Source: Daphnia pulex (Eukaryota; Arthropoda; Branchiopoda; Diplostraca; Daphniidae). From it: 64,000 nucleotides of DNA. The first letter of the stretch is position 1. Each line of letters starts with the position of its first letter. Below the pieces are notes generated by a model. The model searched no databases. It was not told the origin of the DNA and was given only the letters and a program-made list of their open reading frames with translations. Positions 17,693 to 62,821 of this stretch are shown here, piece after piece. The stretch covers positions 2,108,001 to 2,172,000 of the forward strand of contig NC_060019.1 of the NCBI RefSeq assembly GCF_021134715.1, given 5' to 3'. Made by a program: the position numbers and the translations under genes.

Positions 17693-17756
17693 TACACGGT
17701 TTGAAAATAAAAATTCCTTCTACAAAATTAATTATATAAAAAGCAATATGAAAAGC

Positions 17757-30435: not shown

Positions 30436-31521
30436 ATGTCTTCCACCAACATGATTATTTCTCTCGTCTCTGTCTCTACTGTTGTCATCTTCGCGGGTCT
30501 CTTCGCCAGTTGGTGCGTTCGCACAATACGCACATTGATAAAATCTCCATCCAAATCGGAGCTGAAACTGCAAGGATTACCAGTACAACCGACCCGCAAA
30601 GATGGCCAACCCGAGTCGATGAGATTCCAACGTCGAATCCAATCCACAATGGCGGCGTTCATAGAAAACGGAATGGACGATGAATTGGCACCTCTTGTCG
30701 TCTCTCGTTTGGAATGGTGCAACCAAATCAACCGCTACCTGGACATGTTGAAGAATACGCCAGAGTCAATCGAGAGTGTGGCGAATGGCATCGAGGTCCT
30801 GATGAATTACCACCAACTTCATCGATCGGAAGCGGAACAAGACCTCGTCGATGCCATTTTCAGCAGAGCTTTGAAAAACGGAAGCATTTCTCACCTTTAC
30901 GCCAAACTGTTGAAGCGACTAAGGAGCGGCGACCAGAAAGGCTGGACACAAAACATCGTCCGTCTCTTGTTCCAATTCGCCGTCGAGGAATTCAACCGGC
31001 CGCTTGACAGTGACGACGAAAATAGCAAGTCGAGAGTCGAAAAATTCAACAACGTCAAACTGATGGCCGCCATTTTCAAGAGAGAAATGCCCGGAGTGCC
31101 GGACGGTTGGATCACAGACTGTGCCGAGACTTTAATCTACCGTCTCGAGACCGGAGTCACTGAAGAATCGGTTAAGCAACTCTGCCTCTTCCTGACGACG
31201 CTGCTCATCGCTGAACCCGGAGAAAATTGTGATTCGATTACCCCGACCCGACAGAGACAATTGCTGACCTGCTTCGAGGCTCTGGAACGAGCGGCAACTC
31301 CACCCAAAGTCCCTCAACAACCGGACGTGAAAATACAGAAATCGGATGCAACGACACAGACGTTGAAACCTGAGAGCGACGAGAGCGACACGGACACTTC
31401 TACGGACGAGTCGGACACGGAAGAATATGAGGCGGGCCCGGATTCAGAGACTAATGGCCTTCTGGAACCTGCTGAAATCCGCACGAACTCGGCTTCTGCC
31501 TCTGACAACCGGATGAATTAG
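30436..31521 (+). CDS. Membrane-anchored MIF4G-domain protein (copy A)
   Basis: Intronless, 361 residues, start ATG at 30,436. Residues about 6-27 (IISLVSVSTVVIFAGLFASW) form a signal anchor or single transmembrane helix, followed by basic residues (VRTIRTLIKSPSK). Residues about 80-275 follow the MIF4G/HEAT pattern of eIF4G: DLVDAIFSRALKNGSISHLY matches the eIF4G helix with IFEKA, NIVRLLFQFAVEEFNRP the LLLNRCQKEFE helix, FNNVKLMAAIFKREM the GNIKFIGELFK helix, and EESVKQLCLFLTTL the EESLECLCRLLTTI helix. The rest is an acidic Ser/Asp/Glu tail. MIF4G domains bind eIF4A and RNA; a membrane-tethered, eIF4E-site-lacking version suggests local or inhibitory control of translation, which is inference. 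Confidence 0.8.
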   Translation: MSSTNMIISLVSVSTVVIFAGLFASWCVRTIRTLIKSPSKSELKLQGLPVQPTRKDGQPESMRFQRRIQSTMAAFIENGMDDELAPLVVSRLEWCNQINRYLDMLKNTPESIESVANGIEVLMNYHQLHRSEAEQDLVDAIFSRALKNGSISHLYAKLLKRLRSGDQKGWTQNIVRLLFQFAVEEFNRPLDSDDENSKSRVEKFNNVKLMAAIFKREMPGVPDGWITDCAETLIYRLETGVTEESVKQLCLFLTTLLIAEPGENCDSITPTRQRQLLTCFEALERAATPPKVPQQPDVKIQKSDATTQTLKPESDESDTDTSTDESDTEEYEAGPDSETNGLLEPAEIRTNSASASDNRMN

Positions 31522-31803
31522 AAGAAACCGGATAGTGCGTAAACTTAAACTGAAAGCAAAGTTCTGATCGTACAATTAATTTCTTTTTGTCTTCAATGTA
31601 ATACGTTCGAATTGAAGCTATCGATGAATTACAAAAAGTCTTTTAAAAATTTGTTTTTTCTTCTTTTTTTTTAACATTTCACCCTAAATACTGAAGGTGC
31701 AATACTTAATTATTTGTCAGTAACAACACATTTTTACAGTAACAACCCATGTATTTTTCCTTCACGAAACAACAAACATTTGTTGACATTTAGCTAGACC
31801 AAA
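31522..31803 (+). other. 3' flank of MIF4G copy A
   Basis: Homologous to 48,784-49,048 downstream of copy B. The homology ends at gctagacc (about 31,801), exactly where unit B carries the stop end of a PAN-like gene, so unit A stops a few codons into that neighbour. Confidence 0.6.
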
Positions 31804-31999
31804 CAAACAAACAAAAAAACAACTTGTCGAGAAATTATTCTACACGATTAATTAGTAATAGCGTGCAATTGTGAACTAAATCTTTCAGTTGCTGTGGGTA
31901 CGCGATTCAAGAGAGCAGCTACGTTTGTTTTATACGCAAACTAAATGTTAAATCTAATCAACTCAACTCAACATGCATTTAATGTAAAAAAAAAATGGT

Positions 32000-32373
32000 T
32001 TAAATACCGTGTTGACAACGGTCCCCGCTGTATCCAGGCTGACAAGTACATTTACGATTGTTGGAATTGCAGGAGCCTCCATTTAGACAAACCGTATCGC
32101 ATTGAGATTCGCAAACCGGAGGCTGACCTGTCCATTGGCCGTCTGCCTGGCAAACTAATATGGCACTACTTCCCTTTAGATGGCGACCTGCATAATTAAC
32201 GCCAATCGCATATGTATTACCCAAATATATGTTTTTAAGGGCAAATTTACCATGTTTGCAGCTAACAAGAAGTCGATCCCCGAAGTGGTACTGTCCACTT
32301 CCAGCATCAGCCTCTCCACTGATGACGACCACAGAAGCTGTTCCTTTAGCAACTGGATGACTGCAGTGCACTC
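32000..32373 (-). pseudogene. Last exon of the polydom-like gene
   Basis: Starts after the acceptor cattTAG at 32,374. It encodes one CCP (VHCSHPVAKG to WTGQPPVC) followed directly by an EGF with six cysteines (CDTVCLNGGSC, CTCQPGYSGDRC) and the stop. This exon is intact and would be the C-terminus of the secreted protein. Confidence 0.65.
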
Positions 32374-35300
32374 CTAAATGAATCAAGTGGCCCAGTTTAA
32401 TCATCTATGATGGCCTTTATTTAAACAGAAGATTAGAAATGTTTTTACTCTTGCAATGGCCCTTGACAGTGGACCACTGTTGATTGTGCAAACACTGAAG
32501 CGTCATGTCACCGACCGGTGTGAACCCTTCCTGGCAGCGAAGAATCAATTGCGTGAATCAATTGCGGTGGCTATTGGCTTTCCGGATGCCGGAGCTATCG
32601 TGTGGGGAACGGCTGGAGGAGGCGCGAAGCAAGTCAGAGCTGGCTGATGGAAATTTGCATATTTAGCAAAGCCAGTCCGCAAACGGAAAGTATTTGAATC
32701 ATTTATTCGGGATGACGCTATACCTTCACACTGAGGCGACACGGTCGACCAAGTTCCATCCGCCTGGCAGGTGGAATCGTCTGCGCCGATTAACCGATAG
32801 CCGGTGCTACAACGTTGCGAACCCGGTCGCCAATTCGCCATATTGCCGGCCAGTTCCCATCACAACTCCTTGCAATGGTGCTTGAGGTTCATTGCACCAT
32901 ACTCCTATAATTTTTATTTGGTTTTATTATTTCATAGTTAGGATCAATTTTGTAATCAAAATTGATAAATACTTTGACATTGTGGTCCTCGATCGCTCCA
33001 TATTCCTTGGTCCGTGCAAGTCCGTTGACCCGGGCCAAATAGTTGATATCCACGATTGCACGTGTAGTGAGCCGTAGAATGATAACTGGAAATCAAACCA
33101 AACATTAATGACATCAATCTAAATGAATTCCTTGAGAAATAAAGTTACCCCATGGCCAGCTGTTGATTATTGAGCTCTTGATTGTCCGAAATCCAATTGG
33201 TCAACTGGACAGTTCCATGTTCCGGATCTCTCAAAGGTGGACAAGTAATCAGCTGGCAACTAGGCGGGCGATCGCTCCACGATTTGTCCGTCAGGCACCT
33301 TACAGTGGCGGAACCGACCAGAGTAAAACCCGGTTTGCATTCGAAACGGATGGTGGAGCCCGGAACGAAACCACCTACTGTCCAGGATCCATGTTCCGGG
33401 GCTTCCGATACTGCACAAACGACCGGATCACAGGCAGGATCTTCTCCCGACCACCGACTGTTACTCAAACATGTTCTAGATTCGACTCTTAAACATCAGA
33501 AAATTGAAACAAAGTCAAATTTGCAGCAGCTTAAAATTTAAAATAATTAATTTCATTTCATTTGCGTACCAGAAAGGCAATGTCCGGTCTGACAGGAGTA
33601 GGAAATCGTATCACCGACTCCTGTGCCGCGGACGACGGCAAATCTATTGTCGATATTCGGAGGATCGCCGCACGAACGAGTCACACAGACGGGCATTGCT
33701 GGATGGGACCAAGTGCCGTCCGGCCTGCAAGTGATTTGCTCCTCCCCATTCAGTTGATATCCTTCCTGGCAGCTGAAAGTAATCCGGCTGTCCAGAATTG
33801 AGCTCGTTCCGCTGACAGTTCCATGTTTCGGCACCTGGACATCTGGGCAGCGAATGGGTTGACAAACTGGAATCTTCTGCTCGTCCCATTGCCCATCATC
33901 GGCGCAGGTTAGCGCAGATATTTGGGGGTGTTCCAGCACATAGCCCATGCAGCCGGCAACTGAACTGGATCGTCTCGCATAACCCGTACGAACTTTTCAG
34001 CGGTTGCGTGAATTTGAAATCACCGATGACTGCTTTCCCAGTTGACAGTTGTTTCGGAAGAGAACACAGCTGAGCTTCACATTCCGCTTTTCCTTTCCAA
34101 ATGCCGGCCGGACCACAAGTCAAATTGGATCCGAGTAATCGAAAGCCGGGATCGCAACGGACTATCGCCGTGATGATATCCGGTCAAATGACTTTCGATT
34201 GGATTTGACTATTCGGTGGGATCGGCGGAGACTCGCACGGCCATGGAACACAAGCCGGAAACGGATGATTCCAGTCGCCCGTCGACGTGCATTCGGTCAA
34301 CGCGCTGCTCACCAAATCGTATCCGTCTTGACAGGGTTTTGCCATTGGGCGCTGTTGGCGGCCCGTCTTCTGTCCATCCGACGGCGGATGGACGGGCGTG
34401 ATGATTCCGTCTTCCACTATGTCGACGAAATCACATTCGTATTTGACGGAATCCAAATTTGAATATTCCTTTTTCCCGTTTCCGTCCAGTTTGCCGGTCT
34501 TGACGACGGGCGGTTGAGGGCACCGAATCAGCTCGTCTCCATTTGCCCGTCTCCAGACATTTGGCCACCTTGGGGTTGTCGTCGGTCAGCTGGTAGCCTT
34601 TTTTGCATCCGTAGTGGATGATTTGACCAACCATGGCCGCTTCCTCCGTTTCGTTGACGTTGGTCACTTCATTCTGAACGGGACGAGATGTTTACCCATT
34701 CTGAGGGATGACGGCCGGCGGGCAGGAGACTCTGGAACAGACGGGCGGTTTGGAAGACCAAGAGCCGTCGGCCAAGCAGCGCCTCTCCACGACGCCGGAA
34801 TCGTTGTCGGATTTGACAATTACGTAACCTCTTCGGCAGGTGTAAACCAAAATGTCGCCGTAGGTAGGTAGGTAGACTTCCGGATCTAATCGAACATCCG
34901 CTTGTTTGAGTGAAACAACGAAGTTGGCAACGAGGCCCGGATTGGGACACTCCACCGGGCGACAGGTGGGCATTATTCCGCTCCAATTTTCGTCATCTTC
35001 GCAGGACAAACGTTCCGGGCCGTCTAATTCGTATCCCGGATGGAAAACGAATTGAACGACTGAACCGTTGTGACAGTCCCGTGCTCCATGGTGCTGGGCA
35101 GACGCTCGCAAAATATCTGATGGCACGACGGCTCTTGGTCCGTCCAATCGCCGGATGGCAAAGAGGATTGTTCCCGCGCTCCGACTAATTTGTATCCTTC
35201 CTCGCAGTCGTAGAGAATGACAGATCCGGTGCCGAGACTGGTGGCCGATCCGCCCACTTCGAATCCCATGTATCCGTGCTCAATGATGTCCGGGATGGAA

Positions 35301-38300
35301 CACGTTCGAGGAACGCATTTGGGCTTGGCTCCGCCGATCCATTCGCCATCGCTTCCGCACGTCCTCTGCTGCGATCCGCTCAGCACGAATCCTTGGTCGC
35401 AGCGGAAGAGCGCCTTCAATCCGAAATTGGTGGACGTGAAAGTGACGGACCCGTTGGCGGGAGTTTCCGGCTCGCTGCACACGTCTTCCTGGCACCGGAA
35501 CGGCTCGTTGGAATTGGATTCCGCGTCGCTAACGCTCCAGGTCCCGTCCGAATTGCAGACCAAAGTTGCCGGCCCCGAAGTGGCGCCGGCCTGGAAGCCC
35601 GTGTCGCATTCGTAGGTTACCAGTTGGCCCGTTTCGAAACCTTCGACAACAATTGTCCCGTGATCCGGGTTGTCCAATGCCGGACACGTGATTCCGGAAA
35701 TCGATGCCAGAGTCCGGCATTAAGGTAGACCCTGGGGCATCCAGCCGACTGTTCCAGCACATCTTCGTCGTGTTCCACCCTCCAGCAGGAAGCCCTCGTT
35801 ACACGAGTAAACCACTTCAGCACCTGTCGATTAATCGATTCAATTCAAATTTTAAAAAATAAGGAATGAATTCTTATTTGTCTACTCTGATTGGACTTTT
35901 AAAATATTCACAGACTGGATGGACACTGTTCTTGCCCGTGTAGAAAACGGTTTGGGCGTTGACCATTTCACCGTCAACAGCTGACGTGTAGACCCAGGCG
36001 CCATTGTCGATCGCATCCGGCGGAGGACACTCTTCCGGCAAGCATTCGGGAATGTTGCCCGACCAGGAGCCATCTTCCAGGCAAACTAGGAGGTCGGATG
36101 ACGTGCTGTGGAATCCATCTTGGCAAGCGAAATTCAGCTCCTCTCCGGCGACGAACGGTTCGGCGGCCGATTGGGTCCCGTTGCAAACGAGCGGGGCTTC
36201 GGCGCAAGCGACGGGCAGACACTGAGGGGCGACACCCCATCGATTATCGGCTCCGCATTCGATCCAGCTGCTGGCGCCCATCAGTTTGAAGCCGGAATAA
36301 CACGTAACCGGGGCTTTGCTTCCGAAAGTCTTTCTCTTCCGCATAGACTCCGCCGTTGTCGACGGTCGGCGGGGAGCCGCAGTCGACTGGCATGCAGACG
36401 GGCAGGGTGGCTTGTTTGTTGCGATCCAGCCAAGTGCCACTCTCCGTGCATTCGAGCTCGGCCGGACCGAAATGCTCGAATCCAGACTGACAGACGTAAG
36501 AGGCCACCGATCGGACACGGTCGTTATCTGGGCGAGAGAGCTGGACAGTGGCGTGATCAATTTCCGGAGGCGTTCCGCACTGGATGGGCACTCATTTGGA
36601 AATTTGGCCGATCCAGAATCCTTCGTGACTGCACTGGACCTTGGCCGAAGATTCCAGCTGGTAACCAAAGAGACAAGTGAACGTCAAGATGGAGCCGGGC
36701 ACAAGAAAGTAGGGCAGATCTTCCGGCCACTCTGTTGGTGACGATGCCGTGCTCGACGTAAGGTGGGCGTGTGCACGCCAGAGGCTGGCAAACCGGAAGA
36801 ACGTCGTCCCATTGCCCTTCGTCTTGGCAGGTCAAGGAATACGTTCCATCCAGCCGGAAGCCGGTCGAACACGGAAAAGTAATAAGGTCGCCAACGGCGT
36901 AAAATTCCTGCGACACGGGCGGCTCAATCTGGGAGCCGTTGACGGGCGGAATCGGTGGCTCACAAGTGACCGGAACGCATTCAGGCGGATAGCCGCTCCA
37001 TTGGCCGTTTCCTCGCAAGTGCGTAATCCGTCGCCGGACAGGCGGAAGCCTCTCGTGCAGTTGTAGGAGACGGTGTTGTCGTAGACGAAATTGGTTCTGT
37101 TCACCAATCAGTTGAGAATGTATCCGGGAAATCCGCAACTGACCCGTTGGCATTCCGGATCGGGACCGGACCATCCGCCGTAGACGAGACAAGATCGACG
37201 AGACGACGGAGTCGAGAGGAGGCCCAGTTCGCATTCATAGACGGCCTCGTTGCCTTCGACTTTGACTCCGCCGTGTTGCGGCGGAATTGGATCGGAGCAT
37301 CCGCGGCAAAAAATCGACTCCTCCACTCGAATTCCGCGGCGCAGTCCGTGCTTGAAATCGGCCCAGGTGATGAGGTTGCCACGATATTGGCTGCTGGACT
37401 CGCTGTCCAGCTGGTGGCAGGAGAGGGTCAGGCCGGCGATTTGTTGGTCGTCCAGGACGGAATCCCACAGTTTGACTCCGTACAGCTGGCCGACGAAGGA
37501 TTCGGCATTGCTGAACCCTCCGGCGCGGACGTCCTGCTCCTGGCCGAGGATGACGGTCCCGTTGGGATGGATCGACGAATTGCTGGCCAATCCGAATCCC
37601 TTGTCTTTGAGCTCTCCGTCCGAGTAGATGCGCCACTGTCCGTCCAGTGAATTCCACGTGGCGCAAATCAGGTGCCAACGCCCGTCGTTGGCCGTCACGT
37701 CCGTCACCACTTTGGCGTCGTTGACGTAGAGAAACGAAGCCGGAATAGTCCGTCAAGGTCAGCGAATTGGCTTCGTCGTCGGTGGCGTAAGAGAAGACGG
37801 TGCCGTAGTTCTGCTGGTCCGTCGTCTTGATCCAAGCGCACATGGTCATCTGTCTGAGCGGCCTGGCGTTCGTCCAAGTCCGCCCTCCCAGACGGCGTAG
37901 TCCAGTTGGCCGGCGCTGGTGAATTATAAACTGAAATCGGAATTGACGGCCGTGTTGCAAGTCGATCCGACCACTCCAGGTGGGCACAAACAAGCAAAGG
38001 ATCCCAGTCGGTTGACGCAGGTGCTTCCGGCTGCGCACGGTTCCGGCAGGCATTCGTCAACGTCGTTCTAGCAAAGTGGGCCGTTGTAGTTGACCGTTGA
38101 GCGGCTGGTAGAATCCGACCGGACAGGAGAAACAGGGGGCCAATCCCGTCTCGGAAACGAGTCCTCGTGGAGAGACGGACTTTCTAGTCGTCCAGACGAC
38201 GGGCGCCTCGGCGCCATGTGGTCGAACCCGACGGGCAAGGAAGGCAGTTTCGCTGCGAGTACTCGGTCTGGTACGTTCCTTGCGGGCAAGTACTGCACCG

Positions 38301-42994: not shown

Positions 42995-43265
42995 TTTGTC
43001 GATCCTGCAAATATATCGCCGGAGACCATTGCGCTCTTGCAAAAAGGTTGGTCAACCAAATCATTTGTCGGTGTAGTGGCTATGGCTGTAGATTCGTGGG
43101 GTGAAAATGGGTGGTTCAAGTCCACATCCCACCGCTATCGTTTATTGTGAACATCAGCGTGTATGGGTTAGGGTATGTGTAGTACCGACGAAATATCGTG
43201 ATAAAAATTTTCACGAAAAAAAGCGACACAACAACAATAAATTTAATTTGAAAATGGTTCAAATT
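42995..43265 (+). mobile_element. tRNA-derived SINE-like element, copy 3
   Basis: Direct relative of 4,073-4,315 and inverse of 14,385-14,668, with the 5' tgcaaatatatcgccgga block and a ggttcaagtcc B-box (near 43,112). Its 3' end overlaps the last nine or so codons of the minus-strand frame ending at 43,243. Confidence 0.6.
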
Positions 43266-44046
43266 CTAAAAACAGAGGGAGTGTAGTTAATATAGTTAAT
43301 ATATGATCGACTACCGAATCCCACATTCGGCTAACCAATCCGGGATGGTCAGGTAAGTCAGCATTTGCAGCCATCGGTTCAACAGTTTCATCTGCTAATT
43401 TTTGGTGATCTTTGGCACTTTCTTTCTTTTCCGGTTCTAATGGTAATTCGGTAATGACTTTTTCAGTGGACGCGTCATTGTGCGGATGCAAAATCGGGTC
43501 GATCACCGAGTGCCACACACGGCTTACAAGTCCGGGAGTGGTGGGTTCCAGGGTCTTCTTATTCATATTCCTGGCCAATTCAGTCTTGTTTTTCTTAGCA
43601 ATCGACACCGGTGGGTAAGGCTCGTTGTAGTGGCTGCGGGGAACAGGGTTGGCTTTGAAAGGTTTCGGTTTCGAATTTGTCCCGTCAGTCTTTTTAATAG
43701 CGCTTACCACTTCGGGTTTCGGGGGAAAAGTCCAATCACGTGGATGGATCTTTTTGTCCAAATGGGTTGGTAATGGACGGATAGTCTGGGAATTGGGAAT
43801 GGCGGCCGTGATTGAGGTCGAGCCAAATCCTTGAAAAAGGAATCCAACTTTGGGCATTTGTTGGGCCCCATCAGCCGTAGTGGAATTAGCTGGTATTAAG
43901 TGGATTTTATCCGGATTCAAAGTCGTTGGTTTGGTCGCATTGACTGTTGTTGGTTTAGCCAATTGTCTCCGATTGTCGATTTTGGATTTGACAAAAGGAA
44001 ATTCTTTCTTAGCTCCAGGCAGTTTTCGAATTGGTTGAGTATTCAT
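43243..44046 (-). CDS. Hypothetical protein with a duplicated PGLVSR-W motif
   Basis: Intronless 267-residue frame from ATG at 44,044-44,046. The N-terminal two thirds are Pro/Thr/Lys-rich and low in complexity. Near the C-terminus a 16-residue motif appears twice: PGLVSRVWHSVIDPIL and PGLVSRMWDSVVDHIL, about 60 residues apart. No signal peptide or known domain. The final residues (FLEFEPFSN) are encoded in the SINE tail at 43,243-43,265, so the ancestral stop was probably elsewhere. The duplicated motif argues that the frame is real. Confidence 0.55.
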   Translation of the reverse strand: MNTQPIRKLPGAKKEFPFVKSKIDNRRQLAKPTTVNATKPTTLNPDKIHLIPANSTTADGAQQMPKVGFLFQGFGSTSITAAIPNSQTIRPLPTHLDKKIHPRDWTFPPKPEVVSAIKKTDGTNSKPKPFKANPVPRSHYNEPYPPVSIAKKNKTELARNMNKKTLEPTTPGLVSRVWHSVIDPILHPHNDASTEKVITELPLEPEKKESAKDHQKLADETVEPMAANADLPDHPGLVSRMWDSVVDHILTILTTLPLFLEFEPFSN

Positions 44047-44725: not shown

Positions 44726-45611
44726 AATGTTTGAAGCTATTTCGATATGCCTTACAAAAAGTCAGTTAAAAATGTTTTTTTCTTAATAACATTTGTTTAC
44801 CATCCATCACCGTTTTGATTATTTAAAAAAGTTATAAAATCTTTTTATTTCCCCTTTAGAAATTCACAAACAGTATACAGCCGTACATTTAAGCTAAGCC
44901 GAAGCATGATGGGAATACTGAATTTTTGGGAGTAATGTGACGAAAGGAAATGAATAAACACCAGTAAAAAATGTCCGTTTCATCGAATAAAGCGCAAGAT
45001 TGCGATCTGTGCATTGATAGCTGTTTGGGAATTAAAGAACATCGAAGCGATTAAGCGAAGAGGATTAGATTGCTATTACTAGCAGGTAAAGACTGGGTAG
45101 TAGGGTTAATCAAAATAAAGGAGGAAAACGACAAGGATTGAAAGAAGAACAAACTGGTAACGGCGCCACCTGGTGGAGTGGGTCGAATGTTCTCGATAAT
45201 TCTTCCCGGATACATTAAAGCTCAAACCATCGATGAAGAATGTCGAAGAAAGAAGAAGGCTCCAATTTATTAGGGACATTTGATAATTGTTGCCGAAAAA
45301 AAGTACCGTAATTATTATTAGTAATTTACACGTAATAAATCAAGGAAAAAGTAGAGAAAAGAATCCCGCAAAGAAATGCGAAAGAACTTCATCAAAATTA
45401 TTAAATCAAAAATATTTCTTGTATTAGGTCAATTTATTATGCGATGACGCTGAATGTACTTTAGTGCCACGTAATCTAATCACGACACTGTTAACGGGCA
45501 CGTCGTTGACTCAACCATTTGGTTGCTCAACCATTGGTCCGCGAAACTAAGCCCATTCGCATCATTTCTGCCCATTTGGCATAGTCGATTGGGATTGGAA
45601 TTCGAACCAAC
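44726..45611. repeat. Spacer shared by duplicated MIF4G units (B)
   Basis: Homologous to about 26,760-27,605 of unit A but without the 568-bp TIR element. No gene inside. Confidence 0.6.
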
Positions 45612-45740
45612 GGATCGAATTACAGTGGCGCCAGAGCGGGGGTGTGATCAACTAACATTGCTCACTAGGGGGTTCGAACCCTGGTATTGATAGGTGCAAC
45701 TGTTCCTAAGTGACGCTTTAACCAATACATCCACTGTTCC
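45612..45740 (-). mobile_element. tRNA-Arg-derived SINE head (unit B)
   Basis: Counterpart of 28,340-28,475, with the B-box ggttcgaaccc at 45,671-45,681. The A-box side has one change (ggttaaagcgtcac on the minus strand). It was duplicated with the unit rather than inserted independently. Confidence 0.5.
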
Positions 45741-47718
45741 ACAGTTGAAATAATTTAAAAAAAGGTAATGTTTTTAATTTTAGTAGATGACTGCCAAACA
45801 TGTAATCTATTGAATCAAGTCTATAGCTCTGATTGAATTTATTTAAATTTGAAAAAATTTAATTTTTCGTATATCGGCAACAGTGCCACTGCAACCTGTC
45901 ATGTTTCATTTTTTCAAAACAAACAAATAACTTCGTCTGCAGCAACACTTCAAATAAAAAACAAAGAATCGAACGTTTCGTTGGTTTCGTTTAGGAAGTA
46001 GTAATTTAGTATAAAGATTTCACTTTTTACCAGAAAGATAGTAGTTGAAAAAAGTTGAGTAACAATGAAGTTAATCTTATCAAAGAATTAAAAACTTGTA
46101 TCAAACTAAAGCGAAAAAATATTGTTTTAGGCCTGCAACAAGCCACAACAGCCCATTCTTCTTTTTTCTCCAGCTGGGGAAGAACGAAGAAGTAACATTT
46201 ATCCCCAAGTGTCCAACAGGGAATAACAATGCCATGGCAATTGTCTTGAAAAAAATTTGGATTTAAAATGTTAGTTACTTAAGCCATGTAAGGAAGTGTG
46301 AGTGATACTTTGGCTTGACCATGAATCGATGTAGTGAATTTCAACAGTTTCAGAATTATTTCTTTACCTTTTTATTTTATCACATCTCGTTTTTGGCATT
46401 GGAAGGCCCAACAGACAGGAATAGTGTAAAAAATAAGTAAAATAAGTACCAAGAATGGCCGGCTTGAGAGAAAGAACGTTCATTTGTGTGTGAAGGCAAT
46501 TACATTTTACTGCAACCGAAACTGTAAGAGTAAAATAGAATGAAATTTGGGATCGCTACCTCCATCGTCAAGTTCAGGCGAGTTCAGGCGAGTTCAGGCG
46601 AGTTCAGGCATGTTCAAGGTCAGTTATATTTTGTCACGGTGTTTGCTAGGATGACACCGTGCAAAGAGCTTACCTTCATATTCAGTTCACGTTCGTCCCG
46701 TCCAATCGTCAGTAAATATGCGTAAATATGGAAATTTCAATCTAGCCTAAGAGTTATTTTCATTGACCCATAAAATTTTTATCACCGTCGTTAATTATGT
46801 GTCATTTCTACTATTTCGACATTTCTAATTGTTTTTCATTTATTTCCTTGTCCAAAATAGATTAACCCTTAACGTCTCCCCGCGTCTCCTTTGCGGTCTG
46901 ATCAAAGAAGAGAAAGCTGATGGCGAAACAGACGTATGTATGCTATCATTTCGTGCCCTATAATCATAAGTTTTTGTTGCACACAACTGCAAACTGGATA
47001 ACGACTATATGCACAATCTCCGGTAGTGAATTCAAGAAATTCCTGATTGTCAGTAGCCTCTGCTGTTTGACCAGTGACTCGCGTATCATTTAAACTAAAA
47101 AAGCATGATATCATTTTTCGATAATGACGAAGGCAATAGATTCATTTAATGGGGAAAGAAAAGGTTGCTGGGCTTGACTTGACAACAGCTGAGCATTTTC
47201 AACGGACACCTTTTTGTTTAAGAGCCAATTTTTTTTTAACGTAGACTGTGACCGAACATGAATTCAGGATTAAATCTTTTTGTCCGGCACAATATGTTCT
47301 ATTGAGATAAGAAGCTAAGTTATTAGATATGTTGGTTATGTAAGTTAGTTATGTAAGCTTTGACATTTTTCAGTCGTCAGACCAATATTGAAATTACGCA
47401 ATAGGTATAGATGGCGCCACAATCTGAGGAAAGCGTTGGTGATGTAATCATTGACACTGACATACGCATTAAAATAAAAGTTTACTTATTCAATATTGAA
47501 CTGTTTAAACTATTTTTTATTGAGTAATATTCGGAAAAATATTTTACATTTGATTAACATGATTACTAATTTGAAATCATTTAAATTTTACTTTTAGGAC
47601 CGTTTAAACTAGGAAAAATGGGGTTGCCACTGTTTCTAGTCTGTCCAAAGGTTACTTATAGGGGACCGAAGACTTCTAAAGTAAATCGAATTTCACAGAT
47701 CAAAACTTGAATTCAACC
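45741..47718 (+). promoter_or_regulatory. Conserved 5' flank of the MIF4G gene (unit B)
   Basis: Colinear with 28,476-30,435. The gagttcaggc minisatellite has expanded to four units (46,571-46,610). The last 280 bp are near-identical to 58,737-59,019 in unit C. Frames in it are not conserved as protein. Confidence 0.5.
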
Positions 47719-48783
47719 ATGTCTTCCACCAACATGATTATTTCTCTCGTCTCTGTCTCTACTGTTGTCATCTTCGCGGGTCTCTTCGCCAGTTGGTGCG
47801 TTCGCACAATACGCACATTGATAAAATCTCCATCCAAATCGGAGCTGAAACTGCAAGGATTACCAGTACAACCGACCCTCAAAGATGGCCAACCCGAGTC
47901 GATGAGATTCCAACGACGAATCCAATCCACAATGGCGGCGTTCATAGAAAACGGAATGGACGATGAATTGGCACCTCTTGTCGTCTCTCGTTTGGAATGG
48001 TGCAACCAAATCAACCGCTACCTGGACATGTTGAAGAATACGCCAGAGTCAATCGAGAGTGTGGCGAATGGCATCGAGGTCCTGATGAATTACCACCAAC
48101 TTCATCGATCGGAAGCGGAACAAGACCTCGTCGATGCCATTTTCAGCAGAGCTTTGAAAAACGGAAACATTTCTCACCTTTACGCCAAACTGTTGAAGCG
48201 ACTGAGGAGCGGCGACCAGCAGAAAGGCTGGACACAGAACATCGTCCGTCTCTTGTTCCAACTCGCCGTCGAGGAATTCAACCGGCCGCTTGACAGTGAC
48301 GACGAAAATGGCAAGTCGAGACTCGAAAAATTCAACAACGTCAAACTGATGGCCGCCATTTTCAAGAGAGAAATGCCCGGAGTGCCGGACGGTTGGATCA
48401 CAGACTGTGCCGAGACTTTAATCTACCGTCTCGAGACCGGAGTCACTGAAGAATCGGTTAAGCAACTCTGCCTCTTCCTGACGACGCTGCTCATCGCTGA
48501 ACCCGGAGAAAATTGTGATTCGATTACCCCGACCCGACAGAGACAATTGCTGACCTGCTTCGAGGCTCTGGAACGAGCAGCAACTTCACCCAAAGTCCCT
48601 CAACAACCGGACGTGAAAATACAGAAATCGGATGCAACGACACAGACGTTGAAACCTGAGAGCGAAGAGAGCGACACGGACACTTCTACGGACGAGTCGG
48701 ACACGGATTCAGAGACTAATGGCCTGGAACCTGCTGAAATCCGCACGAACTCGGCTTCTGCCTCTGACAACCGGATGAATTAG
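47719..48783 (+). CDS. Membrane-anchored MIF4G-domain protein (copy B)
   Basis: Intronless, 354 residues, ATG at 47,719. Same layout as copy A: transmembrane anchor (residues about 6-27), MIF4G domain (about 80-276) and acidic Ser/Asp/Glu tail. Compared with A it has an extra Gln (GDQQKGW), about half a dozen substitutions (for example PTLKDG, NGNISH) and a tail shortened by eight residues. The coding part from IISLVSV onward reads identically in copy C, so B and C split very recently. The frame is intact and the changes from A look mild, which suggests it is functional. Confidence 0.8.
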   Translation: MSSTNMIISLVSVSTVVIFAGLFASWCVRTIRTLIKSPSKSELKLQGLPVQPTLKDGQPESMRFQRRIQSTMAAFIENGMDDELAPLVVSRLEWCNQINRYLDMLKNTPESIESVANGIEVLMNYHQLHRSEAEQDLVDAIFSRALKNGNISHLYAKLLKRLRSGDQQKGWTQNIVRLLFQLAVEEFNRPLDSDDENGKSRLEKFNNVKLMAAIFKREMPGVPDGWITDCAETLIYRLETGVTEESVKQLCLFLTTLLIAEPGENCDSITPTRQRQLLTCFEALERAATSPKVPQQPDVKIQKSDATTQTLKPESEESDTDTSTDESDTDSETNGLEPAEIRTNSASASDNRMN

Positions 48784-49037
48784 AAGAAACCGCCGTAAAC
48801 TTAAACCGAGAAAAGTTCTGATCGTACAATTAATTTCTTTTTGTCTTCAATGTAATACGTTTGAAGCTATCGATGAAATACAAAAAGTCTTTTAAAAATT
48901 TGTTTTTTCTTCTTTTTTTTAAACATTCGCCGTAAATACTGAAGGTGCAATACTTAATTATTTGTCAGTAACAACACATTTTTACAGTAACAGCACATGT
49001 ATTTTCCCTTCACGAAACAACAAACATTTGTTGACAT

Positions 49038-49379
49038 TTAGCTAGACCAATATGCACGACTCAAGACCCATCCACAAATGCCATTGACTCTTCTATTTTC
49101 GGTTGGGAGTTTGGCTCTCTTCATGTAACAAACGCCATTGGTCCATGTAAAATGGTTGCAATTGGGATTAGCAATGCAGACGCCTCCGCACTGGTCTGCG
49201 GAGCTTGGCTTTTGGGCGATGTCGTTATTAATCCAGTCACAGTTCCACATCCAAATAGTTTGCCCGTTGTCACCATAATTGTACTGACGGACTTGATTTT
49301 CTCCGGCTGATGACACCCAAGCGACGCCTGCGACCAGCATCCAAAAGAACCAGCGGATTTGAAATGATTTGGGTGCCAT
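49038..49379 (-). CDS. Small secreted PAN/apple-like protein
   Basis: 113 residues from ATG at 49,377-49,379, chosen because it starts a clean signal peptide (FFWMLVAGVAWVSSAG); an upstream in-frame codon would bury it. The mature part has six cysteines in a PAN/apple-like arrangement: WNCDWINND, CGGVCIANPNCNHFTW, GVCYMKRAK, GICGW. PAN/apple modules bind carbohydrate or protein outside the cell. A TATA box (tatataaa on the minus strand, 49,565-49,572) lies about 190 bp upstream. It is divergent from the zinc-finger gene's 5' exon near 50,297. The unit C copy has lost most of this gene. Confidence 0.7.
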   Translation of the reverse strand: MAPKSFQIRWFFWMLVAGVAWVSSAGENQVRQYNYGDNGQTIWMWNCDWINNDIAQKPSSADQCGGVCIANPNCNHFTWTNGVCYMKRAKLPTENRRVNGICGWVLSRAYWSS

Positions 49380-56540: not shown

Positions 56541-56690
56541 CGAATCACATCACAGTGGCGCCGTAGCGGGTGTGTGAGGAACTAACAATGCTCACCAGGG
56601 GGTTCGAACACTGTCATAAAGGTGCACTATATTCATTCGTGATGCTGGTCAACGCCTTATCCGATACACCCACTCTTCCACAATATTAAT
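56541..56690 (-). mobile_element. tRNA-Arg-derived SINE head (diverged copy)
   Basis: On the minus strand, tatcggataaggcgtt (about 56,652-56,667) and the B-box-like gtgttcgaacc (near 56,601-56,611) repeat the layout of 28,340-28,475. Homology continues past it to about 56,760. More diverged than the copies in units A and B. Confidence 0.5.
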
Positions 56691-56760
56691 AATTTTAAAA
56701 ATGTAATATTTTTAATTTCATTGGACGATCGCCAAAAACGAAATCTGGTTAATCGATGAT

Positions 56761-57212
56761 TTAAAAATACTGGTAAAATTTTAACACACTATATCTCAAT
56801 CGGTTTGGTTTCGTAGTCTTCGAAGTTCGAATAGGTCTAACAAGTGTGTATGAGTAAGAAACTATTTAACGTATTGAGTTTACTGGTTTTACGAGAATTA
56901 AATTTATCGATTAGCATAAGTCTATGTTATACAAATTGTCAATTGCGACGAACATCAGCACGGAAATGTCCTCCAATTTTGATTGATGCCTGCGAATTTT
57001 AATATTTGTTTCAATCGCTTTTCTTTCTAAAATACCGGGCCAGTGTGTTGTAATTCCACAATTCCGCAATAGCACTGATGTTTCATCATGGGAGATTAGG
57101 GCGAAAACGAAATTAAAAAAACAGCAGATAATTCAATTTTTGGTTTTTAATGGAATAAAACCTGCTCTTTTGTAGTAGTTTTCTTTTCTTCAACTTCTGA
57201 GTTTCTTTCCAG
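56761..57212. other. Non-coding stretch
   Basis: AT-rich, without a supported gene. It ends in a good pyrimidine tract (tttctttccag, 57,202-57,212) serving the endostatin-like exon. No further collagen-like exon was seen. Confidence 0.4.
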
Positions 57213-57663
57213 GGAACTTATCGAGCCTTTTTGGCCTCGCTTGTCCAGAAACTTGAGAAAATTGTCCGTCCTCCCTACCGTGGGCGACCGTGGGTATCCA
57301 GTCATCAACCTCAGGGTATGAGGGTACATCCTTTCGTCTTCTTCTTTTTTACTTTCATATTGTTATTCCTTTTCGACTAGGGTGAGATGTTATTCCGGAC
57401 GTGGAACGATCTGTTCCGCGGCGGGAGGGCCAGCGAATTATCCCCTGCCCGTCAGCTGCGACACGACATTTATAGTTTCAACAACCGCAGCATCTTCGGA
57501 GACATTGTCTGGCACGGCGCCGGACCCAGCGGCCAACGCCAACTTGACTCGTACTGCGACTCCTGGACGTCCAGCGACGCCAAGACGCTCGGAGTGGCCG
57601 CCTGTCTCATCGCCTCCTCTCCGTTCCACCAACAGCAGCAGCAGACGGTCGGCCGTGGCGGTG
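57213..57663 (+). pseudogene. Endostatin-domain (collagen XV/XVIII-like) fragment, frameshifted and truncated
   Basis: Two exons with good splice sites: 57,213-57,315 and 57,381 to about 57,663. Exon 1 reads TYRAFLASLVQKLEKIV and later PVINLR; exon 2 continues GEMLFRTWNDLF, IYSFNNRSIFGDIVWHGAGP and LDSYCDSWTS. This is the endostatin pattern of multiplexin collagens. In exon 1 a 10-bp tandem duplication (ccgtggg at 57,278-57,284 and again at 57,288-57,294) breaks the frame between KIV and PVINLR. Exon 2 ends abruptly in duplicated unit C at about 57,663, so the C-terminal quarter with its last cysteine is missing. Confidence 0.75.
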
Positions 57664-57789
57664 GTGTAAGTTAGTTATGTAAGCTTTGGCATTTTTCAGT
57701 CGTCAGACCAATATTGTAATTACGCAATAGGTAGATGGCGCCACAATCTGAGGACAGTGTTGGTGATGTAATCATTGACACTGACATAC
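57664..57789 (+). repeat. Start of duplicated unit C
   Basis: Begins at taagttagttatgtaagc and matches unit B from about 47,340 to the target site at 57,781-57,789, then resumes after the inserted TIR element at 58,737. The junction with the endostatin fragment is a duplication breakpoint. Confidence 0.75.
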
Positions 57790-58736
57790 GGGCGTCCCTA
57801 AACTGCGAAAGCGAAACGCGAAACGCGAAACGCCTAAAATGCGGAAAAGCTGTGCGAAACGGACCAAAATTTTGGGACCGTTTCGCGGGACCAAATGCCG
57901 GAGGGCATACTAAAGAGCGAAACATCTTGCGAAACAAATAGTTTTCCTTTTCTCCACAGAGGTCCAAATTGACGGAGATTGCCGCCATTTTTCATTGTCT
58001 CCCGCTATGATGAGGCATTAAAGGAGGAAGGGGGGCAATCAAATTCGATTTCTTCGCCACTACCCCTGTATGTTTTCATGCGCATTTTACGATTATTAAA
58101 CTAATGAAAGACATAGAGCAGCACGTTATGGTGATATTTTTAAATAATAAAATATTAGGTAATGGCCCAGGGATTATACGTTACATTAAATAATTTAAAT
58201 CAACCAGTAGGTACGTGCACAAAGAAAGAATCGGCCATAACAGTATGAGTGCCTTATATCAAGCTAAAAATCAAAGCTACCATGTTCCAAATCAAGCTAA
58301 AATTTAATCAGCTAAAACTTTCCTTAAAATTAAGAATGTTAATCTGATTGATACTGATACATGGAAACGAGAAGTTCCATTAATTTTTTTTATACCAATC
58401 TTCTAATTAAAAACACCTATTGCATATTGCATTCAAGGTATTTCGTATTCATGGTCAACACACAAATAGACCAGCGGACCAGCCATAAGGTGCGCGAAAC
58501 TCGAAGTCTCGAAAATTTGAAACTCTTAACAATTTGTTTGTTGACGGCGTCCATTGTCGTCTGCTACCAAGACGTTTACACTGCGACGTTTCGCACACAC
58601 CGATTTCGCAGTTTAGTACGGACCCAAAGACTAAAATGCGAAACAGGGTCCCAACTTTTTGGTCCGTTTCGCACAGCTGTTTCGCATTTTAGGCGTTTCG
58701 CGTTTCGCGTTTCGCTTTCGCAGTTTAGGGACGCCC
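57790..58736. mobile_element. 947-bp TIR element with 9-bp target duplication
   Basis: Ends gggcgtccctaaactgcgaa and its inverse form TIRs of about 85 bp containing repeated gaaacgc words. Exact 9-bp duplications ctgacatac flank it (57,781-57,789 and 58,737-58,745), and unit B has the empty site at about 47,458. A 9-bp duplication with long TIRs fits a Mutator-like non-autonomous element. The 148-codon frame at 58,361-58,807 runs through a TIR and is not a gene. Confidence 0.8.
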
Positions 58737-59187
58737 CTGACATACGCATTAAAATAAAAGTTTACTTATTCAATATTGAACTGTTTAAACTATTTTTTAT
58801 TGAGTAATATTCGGAAAAATATTTTACATTTGATTAACATGATTACTAATTTGAAATCATTTAAATTTTACTTTTAGGACCGTTTAAACTAGGAAAAATG
58901 GGGTTGCCACTGTTTCTAGTCTGTCCAAAGGTTACTTATAGGGGACCGAAGACTTCTAAAGTAAATCGAATTTCACAGATCAAAACTTGAATTCAACCAT
59001 GTCTTCCACCAACATGATTGTCGGTAAATTCGTTCGACATTGACTGTGTGCGACCTCTATATTTCAGCTGCTTCTCAGCAAACAAAAGAACAACAAAAAC
59101 GGGGGATAGGTGAGAGATGGCGCTCAGGTGGGCGGACCTTTCCCTTAGACACATCAGATCTCTTTTCGCTCTCGTTGTGCAAACATC

Positions 59188-61512
59188 ATGTCGGATCCCG
59201 AACAGTCAAGCGATTCTAGCTCAAATTCTAGTAGTTCAGGCTCCGACTCATCAAGAAGAGGAGGCGTAAAGAAATTTCGTCTCTCAAGTGAAAAGTCAGC
59301 TAGTTTGGCCGACTGGGTCGTATCGGGTTTAGATGACACTCGAGCGAAAAGTGCTAGAGAGGCCTTTAGACCCAAGCTAAAGAAGAACGCCGACCTGCTG
59401 ATCAACCCCAATCTAGATGATGCATTCTACATCCGGCTGAAGGCAGTTAAGTCATCTTCGGCAGCCAAGGTCAACATCGACCCAATCGAGAAAATCTACA
59501 GAAACCAAACCTTCAAGATCCTTGACTTAGTCAAGCCCATCATGTTTCTAGCAAGTCGGCTCAAGAAAAAGAAGAAATCCCGAGCCGACGCCAAGGCGGT
59601 CAAAACAGCTCTGAAGCTCTGGGCGGTGGTGTACCACGACATCACGAACGCGCGACGCCGCAACATTCTGGCCCAAATCTACCCGCAGAATATTGGACTG
59701 CTAGACGACAAAGCTGTCCTGCCAACGGGTGGAGAACACCTCTTCGGTCCGAAGTTCACCCAGGCCCTGGTCGAGCAAGTGAAAACTCTGAACGCTCTCG
59801 AAAACGCGGGAGCCCCTCGCGCGCCCGGATCTAAAGGTGGTCATGATCAACGCCAATCGAATCGCGATTTCAGCCACCCCCCTTCATCTTCAGGCGGTCG
59901 CTATTCCAATTTTAAAGGATCTCGGTATGTCCAATCTATTCTCCTTTCCTTTTATGGGTTTTTTCTCTTGGACGCATAGCGCGTTTTTATGTTAAATTGT
60001 CAAGACCGGCTTTCGATCGGTGGAATTTATCAACGGTGGCCCCATATCTACAACTAAATTCTATTTGTGATCCCGTCCAATTATTTGGGAGCGGGTTGGC
60101 TCACCAAGCTGAACTTGATTGACTCATACTTGTCGGTCTCAATTTTTTCCTATTTTTGAAGGCCTTTTGAAATTCCTTCAGTTTAAATGGGGGCGTTTTT
60201 CTTCGAATTCGTGCCCCCCCTCCTTCGTTTTAAACTCAATGTGATGGGCGTTCACCAGACTAGTAAGGGGAGTGGTAACCTTCCTGCGGAAGAACGACCT
60301 TCGCCTCGAACTTTATTGGGATGAGATTTTAATCTCGGCGCACGGGTATAGCATTGCCCCAGCACACTTCCGTGCTCTTCGGATCCCCTTAGATTCCAAA
60401 CCGGATGGTCATCTGATCAGGTCAAGAGAGCAATTTACGCTTTCGGCACGTTTACAAGAGGCTCGTAGAAGTCCTTCTTGGTTGGTTTCAAAGGCAGATT
60501 TTACATCTGGCCGTCCGCTCATTTTTCCCGACGACGGATTTGTCCAGGGCGTCGGATGCATCCTTTTTAAGAAGGGAGGGGGGCAGTATGAAACGAATAA
60601 GGACTAGGAAACTAGCCGAGATTGCCCTAGCAACACCACTGACCTCCCGTCCCTGATAGAGCTAGCAACGGAAATTCCGCTCCTTCTCTTCCCATCCAAG
60701 TAGGCTGATCTCCCCGTTGGGGGAGGGTCATCCATTGACAGGAACGAATCCATCTGTTTTATCGCTCGGTGGTTCTCCGGAGTTGTCTGGAAGAACGAAC
60801 CTTTCCGAAGGAAATTATCGAGCTCATACTGGGAGCAATTCGATCGAATACGCACCCTGCATACCAGTCCGCTGAGGTCGCTGGGAGCAGTTGGTGTAAG
60901 CAACGGAACCACAACTCTCTGTTGTCTGGCGTCAAGGAGGTATTAGCTTTCCTTGTTAATTTTCATTCCAGCAAGAGCTGCAGCACGGTGGGAAGGAACC
61001 CTTCGACAACTATTCGTATGAAAGAGTATTGACGCCCTTTTAGACGAAATGCCGATTTGGTGGCGCATCCATGTTACACAGTCCAGCAGGGCTCCCACGA
61101 GCTCCAATTTTCAATCAGGCGTTGGTAACTGTCGACCATCAGGGGGTCTCATCTTATATCTTATTATATCTGATTATATCTTGCTTTAAAGACACAGTCA
61201 ATGTCGAACGAATTTACCGACAATTTGTAAATTGTTCGAGCGAGCTTTAGCTCGCGATGAGCAATTTGGATTGTTGGGGGAATGGAGTGAAGACATTGAC
61301 TGTCTTCTAACCACCCATCCCGCCCACTTCATTCCCGTTATCATTATGTTATTTAACTTGAATTAGGTGCAGCATCCGATTATTGACGGCCCACTAATTC
61401 CTCTTTCCTTCTATCTTTTTGCTAGATACAACAATGATAGCCGCAGATCCAATTTCGACCGTGGCTCACCCAATCCCGCCAATAAAGGCGATCAGAACAT
61501 CAACAACAAATA
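59188..61512 (+). CDS. DIRS gag-like protein, predicted spliced
   Basis: The main exon starts at ATG 59,188. It encodes a Ser-rich N-terminus (MSDPEQSSDSSSNSSSS), a basic central region and conserved-looking blocks DITNARRRNILAQIYPQN and HLFGPKFTQALVEQV, typical of DIRS ORF1. Unspliced it ends at about 59,979 with a hydrophobic tail. A donor ctcg|gtatgt (59,925) and a strong acceptor ctatctttttgctag (61,425) would join, in frame, a tail NNDSRRSNFDRGSPNPANKG ending at TAG 61,510-61,512, similar in composition to the Gly/Arg/Ser/Asn-rich end of the first exon. The predicted intron spans the degraded pol region and the internal complementary region. Confidence 0.65.
60246..60606 (+). pseudogene. 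DIRS reverse transcriptase/RNase H fragment
   Basis: One open frame reads AFTRLVRGVVTFLRKNDLRL then YWDEILIS, the position of the YxDD catalytic motif (here YWDE, probably inactive). It then jumps to RNase H-like residues (SGRPLIFPDDGFVQGVGCIL). The N-terminal palm and the sequence between are deleted, so the polymerase is not functional. Confidence 0.65.
60769..61032 (+). pseudogene. DIRS tyrosine recombinase N-terminal fragment
   Basis: Reads FPKEIIELILGAIRSNTHPA and LLSGVKEVLAFLVNFHSS, matching the core-binding (SAM-like) start of DIRS tyrosine recombinases. The catalytic domain with the Arg-His-Arg-Tyr residues is absent before the internal complementary region at 61,193. Confidence 0.6.
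61193..61303 (+). other. Internal complementary region of the DIRS element
   Basis: Its first half (to 61,221) is the reverse complement of the left tip at 59,020-59,048. After aat (61,222-61,224) its second half is the reverse complement of the right tip ending at 61,777. It templates closure of the circular intermediate in DIRS elements. Confidence 0.9.
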
Positions 61513-61525
61513 GGCCATTTGAACC

Positions 61526-62821
61526 ATGGATCACCTTACACATTTTCCGTTAAGCCAGATCCACAGTTTGTTTTTGCTTCCAATTCTGATGTGTCTAAGG
61601 GAAAGGTCCGCCCACCTGAGCGCCATCTCTCACCTATCCCCCGTTTTTGTTGTTCTTTTGTTTGCTGAGAAGCAGCTGAAATATAGAGGTCGCACACAGT
61701 CAATGTCTTCACTCCATTCCCCCAACAATCCAAATTGCTCATCGCGAGCTAAAGCTCGCTCGAACAATTTACAAATTATTTCTCTCGTCTCTGTCTCTAC
61801 TGTTGTCATCTTCGCGGGTCTCTTCGCCAGTTGGTGCGTTCGCACAATACGCACATTGATAAAATCTCCATCCAAATCGGAGCTGAAACTGCAAGGATTA
61901 CCAGTACAACCGACCCTCAAAGATGGCCAACCCGAGTCGATGAGATTCCAACGACGAATCCAATCCACAATGGCGGCGTTCATAGAAAACGGAATGGACG
62001 ATGAATTGGCACCTCTTGTCGTCTCTCGTTTGGAATGGTGCAACCAAATCAACCGCTACCTGGACATGTTGAAGAATACGCCAGAGTCAATCGAGAGTGT
62101 GGCGAATGGCATCGAGGTCCTGATGAATTACCACCAACTTCATCGATCGGAAGCGGAACAAGACCTCGTCGATGCCATTTTCAGCAGAGCTTTGAAAAAC
62201 GGAAACATTTCTCACCTTTACGCCAAACTGTTGAAGCGACTGAGGAGCGGCGACCAGCAGAAAGGCTGGACACAGAACATCGTCCGTCTCTTGTTCCAAC
62301 TCGCCGTCGAGGAATTCAACCGGCCGCTTGACAGTGACGACGAAAATGGCAAGTCGAGACTCGAAAAATTCAACAACGTCAAACTGATGGCCGCCATTTT
62401 CAAGAGAGAAATGCCCGGAGTGCCGGACGGTTGGATCACAGACTGTGCCGAGACTTTAATCTACCGTCTCGAGACCGGAGTCACTGAAGAATCGGTTAAG
62501 CAACTCTGCCTCTTCCTGACGACGCTGCTCATCGCTGAACCCGGAGAAAATTGTGATTCGATTACCCCGACCCGACAGAGACAATTGCTGACCTGCTTCG
62601 AGGCTCTGGAACGAGCAGCAACTTCACCCAAAGTCCCTCAACAACCGGACGTGAAAATACAGAAATCGGATGCAACGACACAGACGTTGAAACCTGAGAG
62701 CGAAGAGAGCGACACGGACACTTCTACGGACGAGTCGGACACGGATTCAGAGACTAATGGCCTGGAACCTGCTGAAATCCGCACGAACTCGGCTTCTGCC
62801 TCTGACAACCGGATGAATTAG
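61526..62821 (+). CDS. DIRS-MIF4G chimeric ORF (copy C)
   Basis: 431 codons. The first 83 or so codons (MDHLTHFPLSQIHSLFLLPI onward) derive from the right end of the DIRS element. From IISLVSVSTVVIFAG the frame is identical to copy B: transmembrane helix, MIF4G domain and acidic tail. Original codons 1-6 (MSSTNM) are separated off at 59,002-59,019. The new N-terminus has its own hydrophobic stretch (IHSLFLLPILMCL), so topology may change. Translation would need a transcript starting within the DIRS right end. It may be a dead copy with an open frame only by chance, or a newborn fusion. Confidence 0.65.
   Translation: MDHLTHFPLSQIHSLFLLPILMCLRERSAHLSAISHLSPVFVVLLFAEKQLKYRGRTQSMSSLHSPNNPNCSSRAKARSNNLQIISLVSVSTVVIFAGLFASWCVRTIRTLIKSPSKSELKLQGLPVQPTLKDGQPESMRFQRRIQSTMAAFIENGMDDELAPLVVSRLEWCNQINRYLDMLKNTPESIESVANGIEVLMNYHQLHRSEAEQDLVDAIFSRALKNGNISHLYAKLLKRLRSGDQQKGWTQNIVRLLFQLAVEEFNRPLDSDDENGKSRLEKFNNVKLMAAIFKREMPGVPDGWITDCAETLIYRLETGVTEESVKQLCLFLTTLLIAEPGENCDSITPTRQRQLLTCFEALERAATSPKVPQQPDVKIQKSDATTQTLKPESEESDTDTSTDESDTDSETNGLEPAEIRTNSASASDNRMN

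Follow-up and report, generated by a model that had tools for sequence, protein, structure and literature searches.

A multi-copy family of predicted membrane-anchored MIF4G proteins in Daphnia pulex

A 64-kb stretch of the Daphnia pulex genome (C3:2108001-2172000, hereafter the window) carries members of a multi-copy family of proteins in which a predicted N-terminal membrane anchor precedes a single MIF4G domain related to that of the translation initiation factor eIF4G. MIF4G domains are known as soluble scaffolds that serve in translation, decay, and splicing. From the sequence comparisons reported here we propose, with a probability of roughly 0.45, that the family consists of single-pass membrane proteins that would expose a shortened MIF4G domain of the eIF4G type to the cytosol and serve as a tether for a partner other than eIF4A. 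The domain as such is known, but its membrane-anchored architecture and its expansion appear to be undescribed.

Three genes in the window, T1, T2, and T3, share one architecture, i.e. an N-terminal hydrophobic helix resembling a transmembrane segment, a linker, a single MIF4G domain, and an acidic tail (Table 1). In T1, the 75 residues of the tail include 18 Asp or Glu as compared to 6 Lys or Arg; the tail was missing from T9 in the joint alignment described below. As judged from their open frames, the copies are probably intronless. An earlier note on this DNA had described three intronless, anchored MIF4G genes. This description held for T1, T2, and the architecture, but not for T3, which is split by an insertion resembling a DIRS element and whose open reading frame (ORF) takes its start from that element.

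Table 1. Features of the window and family members elsewhere in the genome (positions refer to the window unless a contig is given; aa, amino acids; TM, transmembrane)
Feature	Position	Strand	Remarks
T1, open ORF, 361 aa	30436..31521	+	Putative TM anchor, linker, MIF4G, acidic tail
T1 predicted TM helix, residues 6-24	30451..30507	+	MIISLVSVSTVVIFAGLFA; Kyte-Doolittle
T1 MIF4G domain, residues 102-293	30739..31314	+	Pfam; profile positions 8-186 of 203
T1 residues 201-229	31036..31122	+	VEKFNNVKLMAAIFKREMPGVPDGWITDC; best-conserved stretch of the family
T1 acidic Ser/Thr-rich tail, 75 aa	31294..31518	+	Located where the last helix lies in canonical MIF4G
T2, open ORF, 354 aa	47719..48783	+	Architecture as T1
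T3, ORF, 431 aa	61526..62821	+	Family body, residues 84-431; residues 1-83 read from inserted element
T3 original ATG and first 7 codons	58999..59019	+	Stranded upstream of insertion
DIRS-like insertion in T3	about 59020..61774		123-nt inverted repeats 59036-59158 / 61585-61707 (100%)
Second insertion, upstream of T3	57790..58736		Terminal inverted repeats 57790-57886 / 58638-58736 (94%)
Duplicated segment	28339..31802	+	Matches 45605-49050 (93%)
T6	C3 1.218 Mb		81% in T1 search
T7	C5		63% in T1 search
T8, T9	C2		41% and 45% in T1 search
T10	C10		37% in T1 search; 569 aa, C-terminal part unlike the rest

Identity of the MIF4G domain

The curated cut-off of the Pfam MIF4G profile (PF02854) is 30.8 bits. 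T1 scored 34.9 bits (E = 1.7e-8), T2 35.6 bits (E = 1e-8), and T3 34.9 bits (E = 1.6e-8); T4 (33.8), T5 (35.3), and T7 (35.2) also lay above the cut-off. T6 and T8 fell just below it as single proteins (29.8 and 30.2 bits), and the genome scan put them above it, at 31.3 and 31.1 bits. T9 remained below (24.8 bits). The three window scores (34.9-35.6 bits) confirmed the domain assignment made in the earlier note, and its alignment of helix blocks with eIF4G held as well. The blocks of T1 aligned with those of eIF4GII in a phmmer comparison (whole-sequence E = 0.0029), and against seven canonical MIF4G domains of this genome, profile-profile comparison gave a probability of 88% (E = 3.1e-6). The blocks also aligned, in order, with the MIF4G domain of the DAP5-like (eIF4G2) gene of this genome (C4:5535255; 5.5e-90 to PDB 4iul). 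When PDB was searched with the family profile, eIF4GII was the best natural-protein match (E = 0.0044), with eIF4G1 (E = 0.0049) and eIF4G2 also among the closest solved natural proteins. Two designed repeat proteins (8g8i and 8eoz) ranked above them; these matches comprised 47-55 residues of helix and were taken to reflect composition. Taken together, homology to the MIF4G domain is well supported at the sequence level.

Structure prediction gave models of too low a quality to speak for or against a helical-repeat fold of the HEAT type. The AlphaFold model of T1 from its single sequence had a predicted local distance difference test score (pLDDT) of 45.9, and Foldseek returned no PDB match at E <= 0.001. 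A low-confidence model of the domain alone, built with the three near-identical window copies, reached a pLDDT of 53.6, again with no match at this threshold; a looser Foldseek listing contained many helical repeats, with yeast eIF4G at rank 42.

Other parts of eIF4G were searched for as well. Scans of T1-T3 at E values up to 10, and of T6-T10 at values up to 1, gave no Pfam match to MA3 or W2. The eIF4E-binding pattern Y-x4-L-[LMIFVAC] was absent from T1-T6, T8, and T9, and its matches in T7 (one) and T10 (two) were chance-like. No Pfam model covered the whole length of the proteins (T1-T3 and T6-T10 scanned), and NCBIfam, a library built for prokaryotes, gave nothing relevant for T1, T8, and T10.

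Distribution across the genome

A search of the genome (133 Mb, 13 contigs) with T1 that tolerated stop codons gave 12 matches; all counts are lower bounds. The family comprises at least 10 open frames on four contigs, together with one decayed copy and one fragment, and so extends well past the window, which supports the multi-copy character that had been claimed for it. The decayed copy on C9 carries stops and a frame break, and accounts for the last two matches of the search; the fragment at C10:3831047 matches residues 1-115 of T10 at 50%. Five copies lie within 120 kb on C3 (T4 at 2.051 Mb, T5 at 2.094, T1 at 2.138, T2 at 2.156, and T3 at 2.170). This cluster expanded via segmental duplication. 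The gene-bearing part (30454-31802) of the duplicated segment listed in Table 1 was found again at 61775-63099 (94%). Divergence is greater in the dispersed copies on C2, C5, and C10, which presumably predate the cluster, and T10 is the least certain member. Judged from this genome alone, the multi-copy family is apparently confined to one lineage.

A genome-wide search with the anchor module (the first 60 residues of T1) yielded seven matches, which were T1-T7 only. Runs of ten or more A, a hallmark of retroposition, were absent from the 400 nt past the stop codon in T1-T9, although T5 has runs of 8 and 9. This downstream comparison covered T1-T9.

T3 cannot count as a clean third gene, as its frame is interrupted after codon 7 by about 2.75 kb of DIRS-like sequence, within which the 431-aa ORF begins. 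Upstream of the insertion, 283 bases are identical between T2 and T3 (47457-47739 and 58737-59019), and the shared body resumes at 61775. Besides its inverted repeats, the insertion contains a complementary repeat (61222-61303 / 61696-61777; 82 nt, 100%); such features occur in DIRS-type retrotransposons. It also carries an ORF at 59188-59979 (263 aa), which is presumably gag-like; the Pfam scan gave no match for it.

Membrane anchor and topology

A hydrophobic helix near the N-terminus was present in 10 out of 10 copies, with maximum Kyte-Doolittle values of 2.06-2.53, all above 2.0. For the T1 helix (MIISLVSVSTVVIFAGLFA) the mean value was 2.39. Together with the one PF02854 match per protein, this helix supports the earlier reading of a membrane-tethered protein with a single MIF4G domain. 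Counts of basic and acidic residues in the 15 residues after the helix were 3/0 in T1, T2, T4, and T5, 4/0 in T3, 5/0 in T6, 4/1 in T7 and T9, and 2/1 in T8. The T10 flank (1/5) departs from the positive-inside pattern. Since basic residues lie C-terminal to the helix, the positive-inside rule would predict that the N-terminus faces outward and that the MIF4G domain is cytosolic.

Frame maintenance and selection

To what extent the frames are kept was assessed by neutral simulation, in which the observed number of substitutions was placed randomly on one member of a pair (2000 runs per pair). For T1/T7, 7.4 stops were expected and none was observed; only 2 of the 2000 runs were stop-free. The corresponding values were 7.3 expected stops and 3 stop-free runs for T6/T7, 3.9 and 33 for T1/T6, and 3.2 and 73 for T8/T9. 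In nucleotide alignments of these four informative pairs, none of the gaps was frame-breaking (0/13 for T1/T7, 0/13 for T6/T7, 0/7 for T1/T6, and 0/10 for T8/T9). The absence of frame-breaking gaps and the stop-free frames, compared with the simulations, indicate that the frames have been kept.

The ratio of nonsynonymous to synonymous substitution rates (dN/dS, omega) was estimated with the Goldman-Yang (GY) codon model, leaving out T3, T10, and codons gapped in any row. Omega was 0.94 for T1, T2, and T4-T7 (340 codons), which is not distinguishable from 1, 0.89 for T1, T6, and T7 (346 codons), and 0.62 when T8 and T9 were added (260 codons). Fixing omega at 1 with kappa at 2 worsened the log-likelihood by 0.75 for the first two sets and by 8.5 for the set with T8 and T9. 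Pairwise Nei-Gojobori estimates for all 10 copies gave omega values of 0.29-0.86 among T1-T7, and of 0.30-0.42 in comparisons with T8 and T9, where synonymous divergence (dS) of 1.4-2.0 is near saturation. Overall, the sequences point to fast amino acid change in frames that stayed open over a long divergence. The codon data are compatible with relaxed constraint and with diversifying selection alike, and do not separate the two. Neutral dN/dS had been named as an outcome that would speak against the family, and the answer was mixed: neutral-like in the recent clade, but not neutral with regard to the kept frames and the omega obtained with T8 and T9.

These data bear on a first alternative, namely that the copies are young, mostly dispensable duplicates under relaxed selection, in which an unremarkable job falls to T8 or T6, i.e. 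to one or two of the older copies, while the cluster copies drift. The omega of about 0.94 and the small log-likelihood cost of omega 1 would fit it, as would the interruption of T3, the missing tail of T9, and the decayed copy on C9. The intact frames of the four informative pairs and the value of 0.62 argue against it. A further point against it is the 400 nt upstream of the start codon: when T1, T2, and T4-T8 were compared, much of this region could still be aligned by eye among T1, T2, and T4-T7. We consider this alternative fairly unlikely.

eIF4A contacts and the conserved block

According to PMC10746786, N86 (N615 in yeast) and R295 (K837 in yeast) of DAP5 contact eIF4A, and K108, K112, and R165 form an RNA-binding site. 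DAP5 numbering was set on the 4iul alignment via the Asn of LNKLTP, and a joint alignment with canonical MIF4G domains was built with T1 and T6-T9. In this alignment, N86 corresponds to D103 of T1, and the equivalent residue is D, S, E, or H in all 10 copies. The R295 helix (RIRF..QD..DLR) has no counterpart in T1 and T6-T9, where the tail begins instead. The seven canonical MIF4G domains aligned from this genome served as a control; Asn at N86 and the RIRF motif were invariant in all of them. Judged from the alignment, the two known eIF4A contacts look lost.

The RNA-binding positions do not discriminate. The K112 equivalent is K in 2 and the R165 equivalent R in 6 of the 10 copies, but the DAP5-like protein of this genome itself has P at K108 and Q at R165. 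Loss of these residues was consequently dropped as an argument against RNA binding, as the DAP5-like protein also lacks two of the three.

An eIF4A decoy had been among the functions suggested at the outset, and this suggestion is weakened by the replacement or absence of both contact positions, which makes a decoy acting via these contacts unlikely. The other two functions suggested there, a local translation regulator and a decoy for a viral factor, could still apply. More broadly, the family could comprise membrane-tethered eIF4A decoys or local translation activators that work like the middle domain of eIF4G. The shared domain family, the closest solved natural proteins (eIF4GII, eIF4G1, and eIF4G2), and an Asn near the N86 position in T1-T7 (N107 of T1) are in its favor. 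Given the lack of Asn at the aligned position in all 10 copies, the missing R295 helix in the five aligned ones, the negative MA3/W2 scans, and an eIF4E pattern confined to 2 of 10 copies (T7 and T10), we regard it as improbable.

In contrast to the contact positions, one stretch of the domain is well conserved. Among windows of 20 residues, the six with the highest conservation begin at residues 203-211 (T1 numbering), with 13-14 of 20 positions identical across T1 and T6-T9 as compared to 33% over residues 101-290. The sequence VPDGWITDC falls within this best-conserved part. According to PMC4703368, the site of norovirus VPg on eIF4GI maps to a patch that includes L912, E914, H918, and D919. 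Their spacing fits LTEAIMHDC of eIF4GII, which aligns with VPDGWITDC of T1; with the numbers placed by spacing, the equivalents are V, D or E, T, and D in nine of nine copies (T1-T9).

A role in host defence was also considered, in which a membrane-anchored eIF4G mimic would, in an arms race, capture those viral proteins that bind to eIF4G on the membranes used for replication. Copy number, omega near 1, and the alignment with the VPg site might be read in this way. On the other hand, H918 is replaced by T, T10 is without the block, and the bait surface of an arms race is expected to be variable, but VPDGWITDC sits in the most conserved part. A search of IMG/VR for a viral relative with two peptide patterns gave 94 matches, none of which was confirmed, and thereby lent no support to a viral origin of the family. 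This role seems very improbable, and we give equally little credence to the more specific notion of crustacean-specific tethered eIF4G mimics that would have dropped the eIF4A contacts, largely kept the distal viral-protein patch, and evolved fast as a membrane trap for viral or selfish messenger ribonucleoproteins (mRNPs).

Comparison with known MIF4G proteins

With the middle domain of eIF4G1/eIF4G3 (MIF4G, HEAT-1) the anchored family shares the domain family and the order of the helix blocks. Unlike these proteins, it has no Asn at N86, no last eIF4A-contacting helix, no MA3/W2 match, and no clear eIF4E motif, and instead has an N-terminal membrane anchor. The MIF4G core is also shared with DAP5/eIF4G2, but the canonical gene retains LNKLTP and the RIRF helix, neither of which is retained in the anchored family; the anchored-family profile reached the DAP5-like locus weakly (E = 4.9e-4, over a 30-position stretch). 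PAIP1, MIF4GD/SLIP1, and CTIF are soluble adaptor proteins with one MIF4G domain. PDB chains of PAIP1 matched the canonical DAP5-like query, but not the anchored family.

A second multi-copy MIF4G family was observed at six loci, L017-L022 (C2:11995161, C8:1808061, and C7:1846524, 2658682, 2687133, and 1831023). These loci have intronless open frames of 672-1144 aa with mutual identities of 71-99%, and MIF4G scored above the cut-off at all six loci. The scan for a KH domain was confined to L017, where it located one at the C-terminus (38.5 bits); the other ends are similar by eye. This combination of MIF4G and KH is reminiscent of Mextli. The two families resemble each other in their intronless open frames, multiple loci, and MIF4G domain. 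L017-L022 differ by a canonical MIF4G domain (139.9 bits in L017), a long N-terminal region, and KH; their hydrophobic stretch is weak (maximum Kyte-Doolittle value 1.11-1.37), and the anchored-family profile misses them at E = 5. An ORF of at least 470 aa on C7 (L057:1-1410, minus strand; C7:8327000) combines a hydrophobic stretch at its N-terminus with a KH domain (27 bits), and by eye is like the C-terminal part of L017.

Among the matches listed from the open-access full-text literature, a scope that leaves out most subscription papers, we found neither a membrane-anchored MIF4G family nor a MIF4G expansion in Daphnia. In PMC8394891, both mentions of MIF4G concern zebrafish mif4gdb. Within the scopes of this literature, Pfam, and NCBIfam, the family appears to be undescribed.

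Neighbouring features

An ORF at 43243-44046 (minus strand, 267 aa) belongs to a dispersed multi-copy family whose members start with MNTQPIRKLPG and contain KPFKA(N/R)PVP motifs. Its relatives include ORFs of 336-657 aa on C3, C4, C6, C7, and C10, with fragments elsewhere; one such gene lies less than 2 kb from the L057 ORF, and the C-terminal part of T10 weakly resembles the window ORF. Beside T1, at about 32000-37234 (minus strand), we noted pieces of a sushi-type gene, where all four ORFs scanned scored above the cut-off for sushi. A near-identical piece lies beside T5, so the duplicated unit may include the sushi-type gene. A 3.6-kb tandem duplication (431-4072 / 4316-7956; 99.9% identity), made of smaller repeats, either arose very recently or reflects the assembly. 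The stretch 15301-18726 consists of direct and inverted repeats in nested arrangement, with 967 nt at 99.3% between 15301 and 17760.

Discussion

The simplest reading of the sequences would be an adaptor, tethered to a membrane, whose conserved face holds a different partner. The N-terminal helix would anchor the protein in the membrane of the endoplasmic reticulum or the outer membrane of mitochondria, with the domain facing the cytosol. Lacking both eIF4A contacts, such a protein would not be expected to sequester eIF4A in the manner of eIF4G. The face marked by VKLMAAIFKR-P-VP-WITDC (VKLMAAIFKR..P.VP..WITDC) would bind a partner other than eIF4A and place it at the membrane; initiation factors (e.g. 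eIF3), DEAD-box helicases other than eIF4A, and mRNP proteins are possible partners. As MIF4G domains also bind DEAD-box proteins besides eIF4A, a different helicase would be a fair candidate. The acidic tail may be a flexible regulatory region.

Several observations weigh against this tethered-adaptor reading. Anchors were assessed solely by Kyte-Doolittle hydropathy. The residue mapping relies on an alignment of about 20% identity, and the best AlphaFold model has a pLDDT of 53.6. In the hhalign alignment, N86 falls on K106 of T1 rather than on D103, with N107 adjoining, making a shifted Asn contact via N107 possible. T10 aligns poorly and has no Pfam MIF4G match. With regard to selection, an omega near 1 in the recent clade is also expected of relaxed duplicates, and the recent pair T1/T4 tells nothing about whether frames are kept (952 of 2000 runs stop-free). 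The copies were chosen by their open frames, yet the stop-tolerant search gave just the one decayed copy and the one fragment.

If the tethered-adaptor reading is true, this fast-evolving, membrane-tethered MIF4G domain without the usual eIF4A contacts would mean that the fold lends itself to reuse as an adaptor at membranes. The set of paralogues, found in a crustacean laboratory model, would be a resource for finding the partner; if that partner were viral, the family would represent an unrecognised kind of restriction factor.

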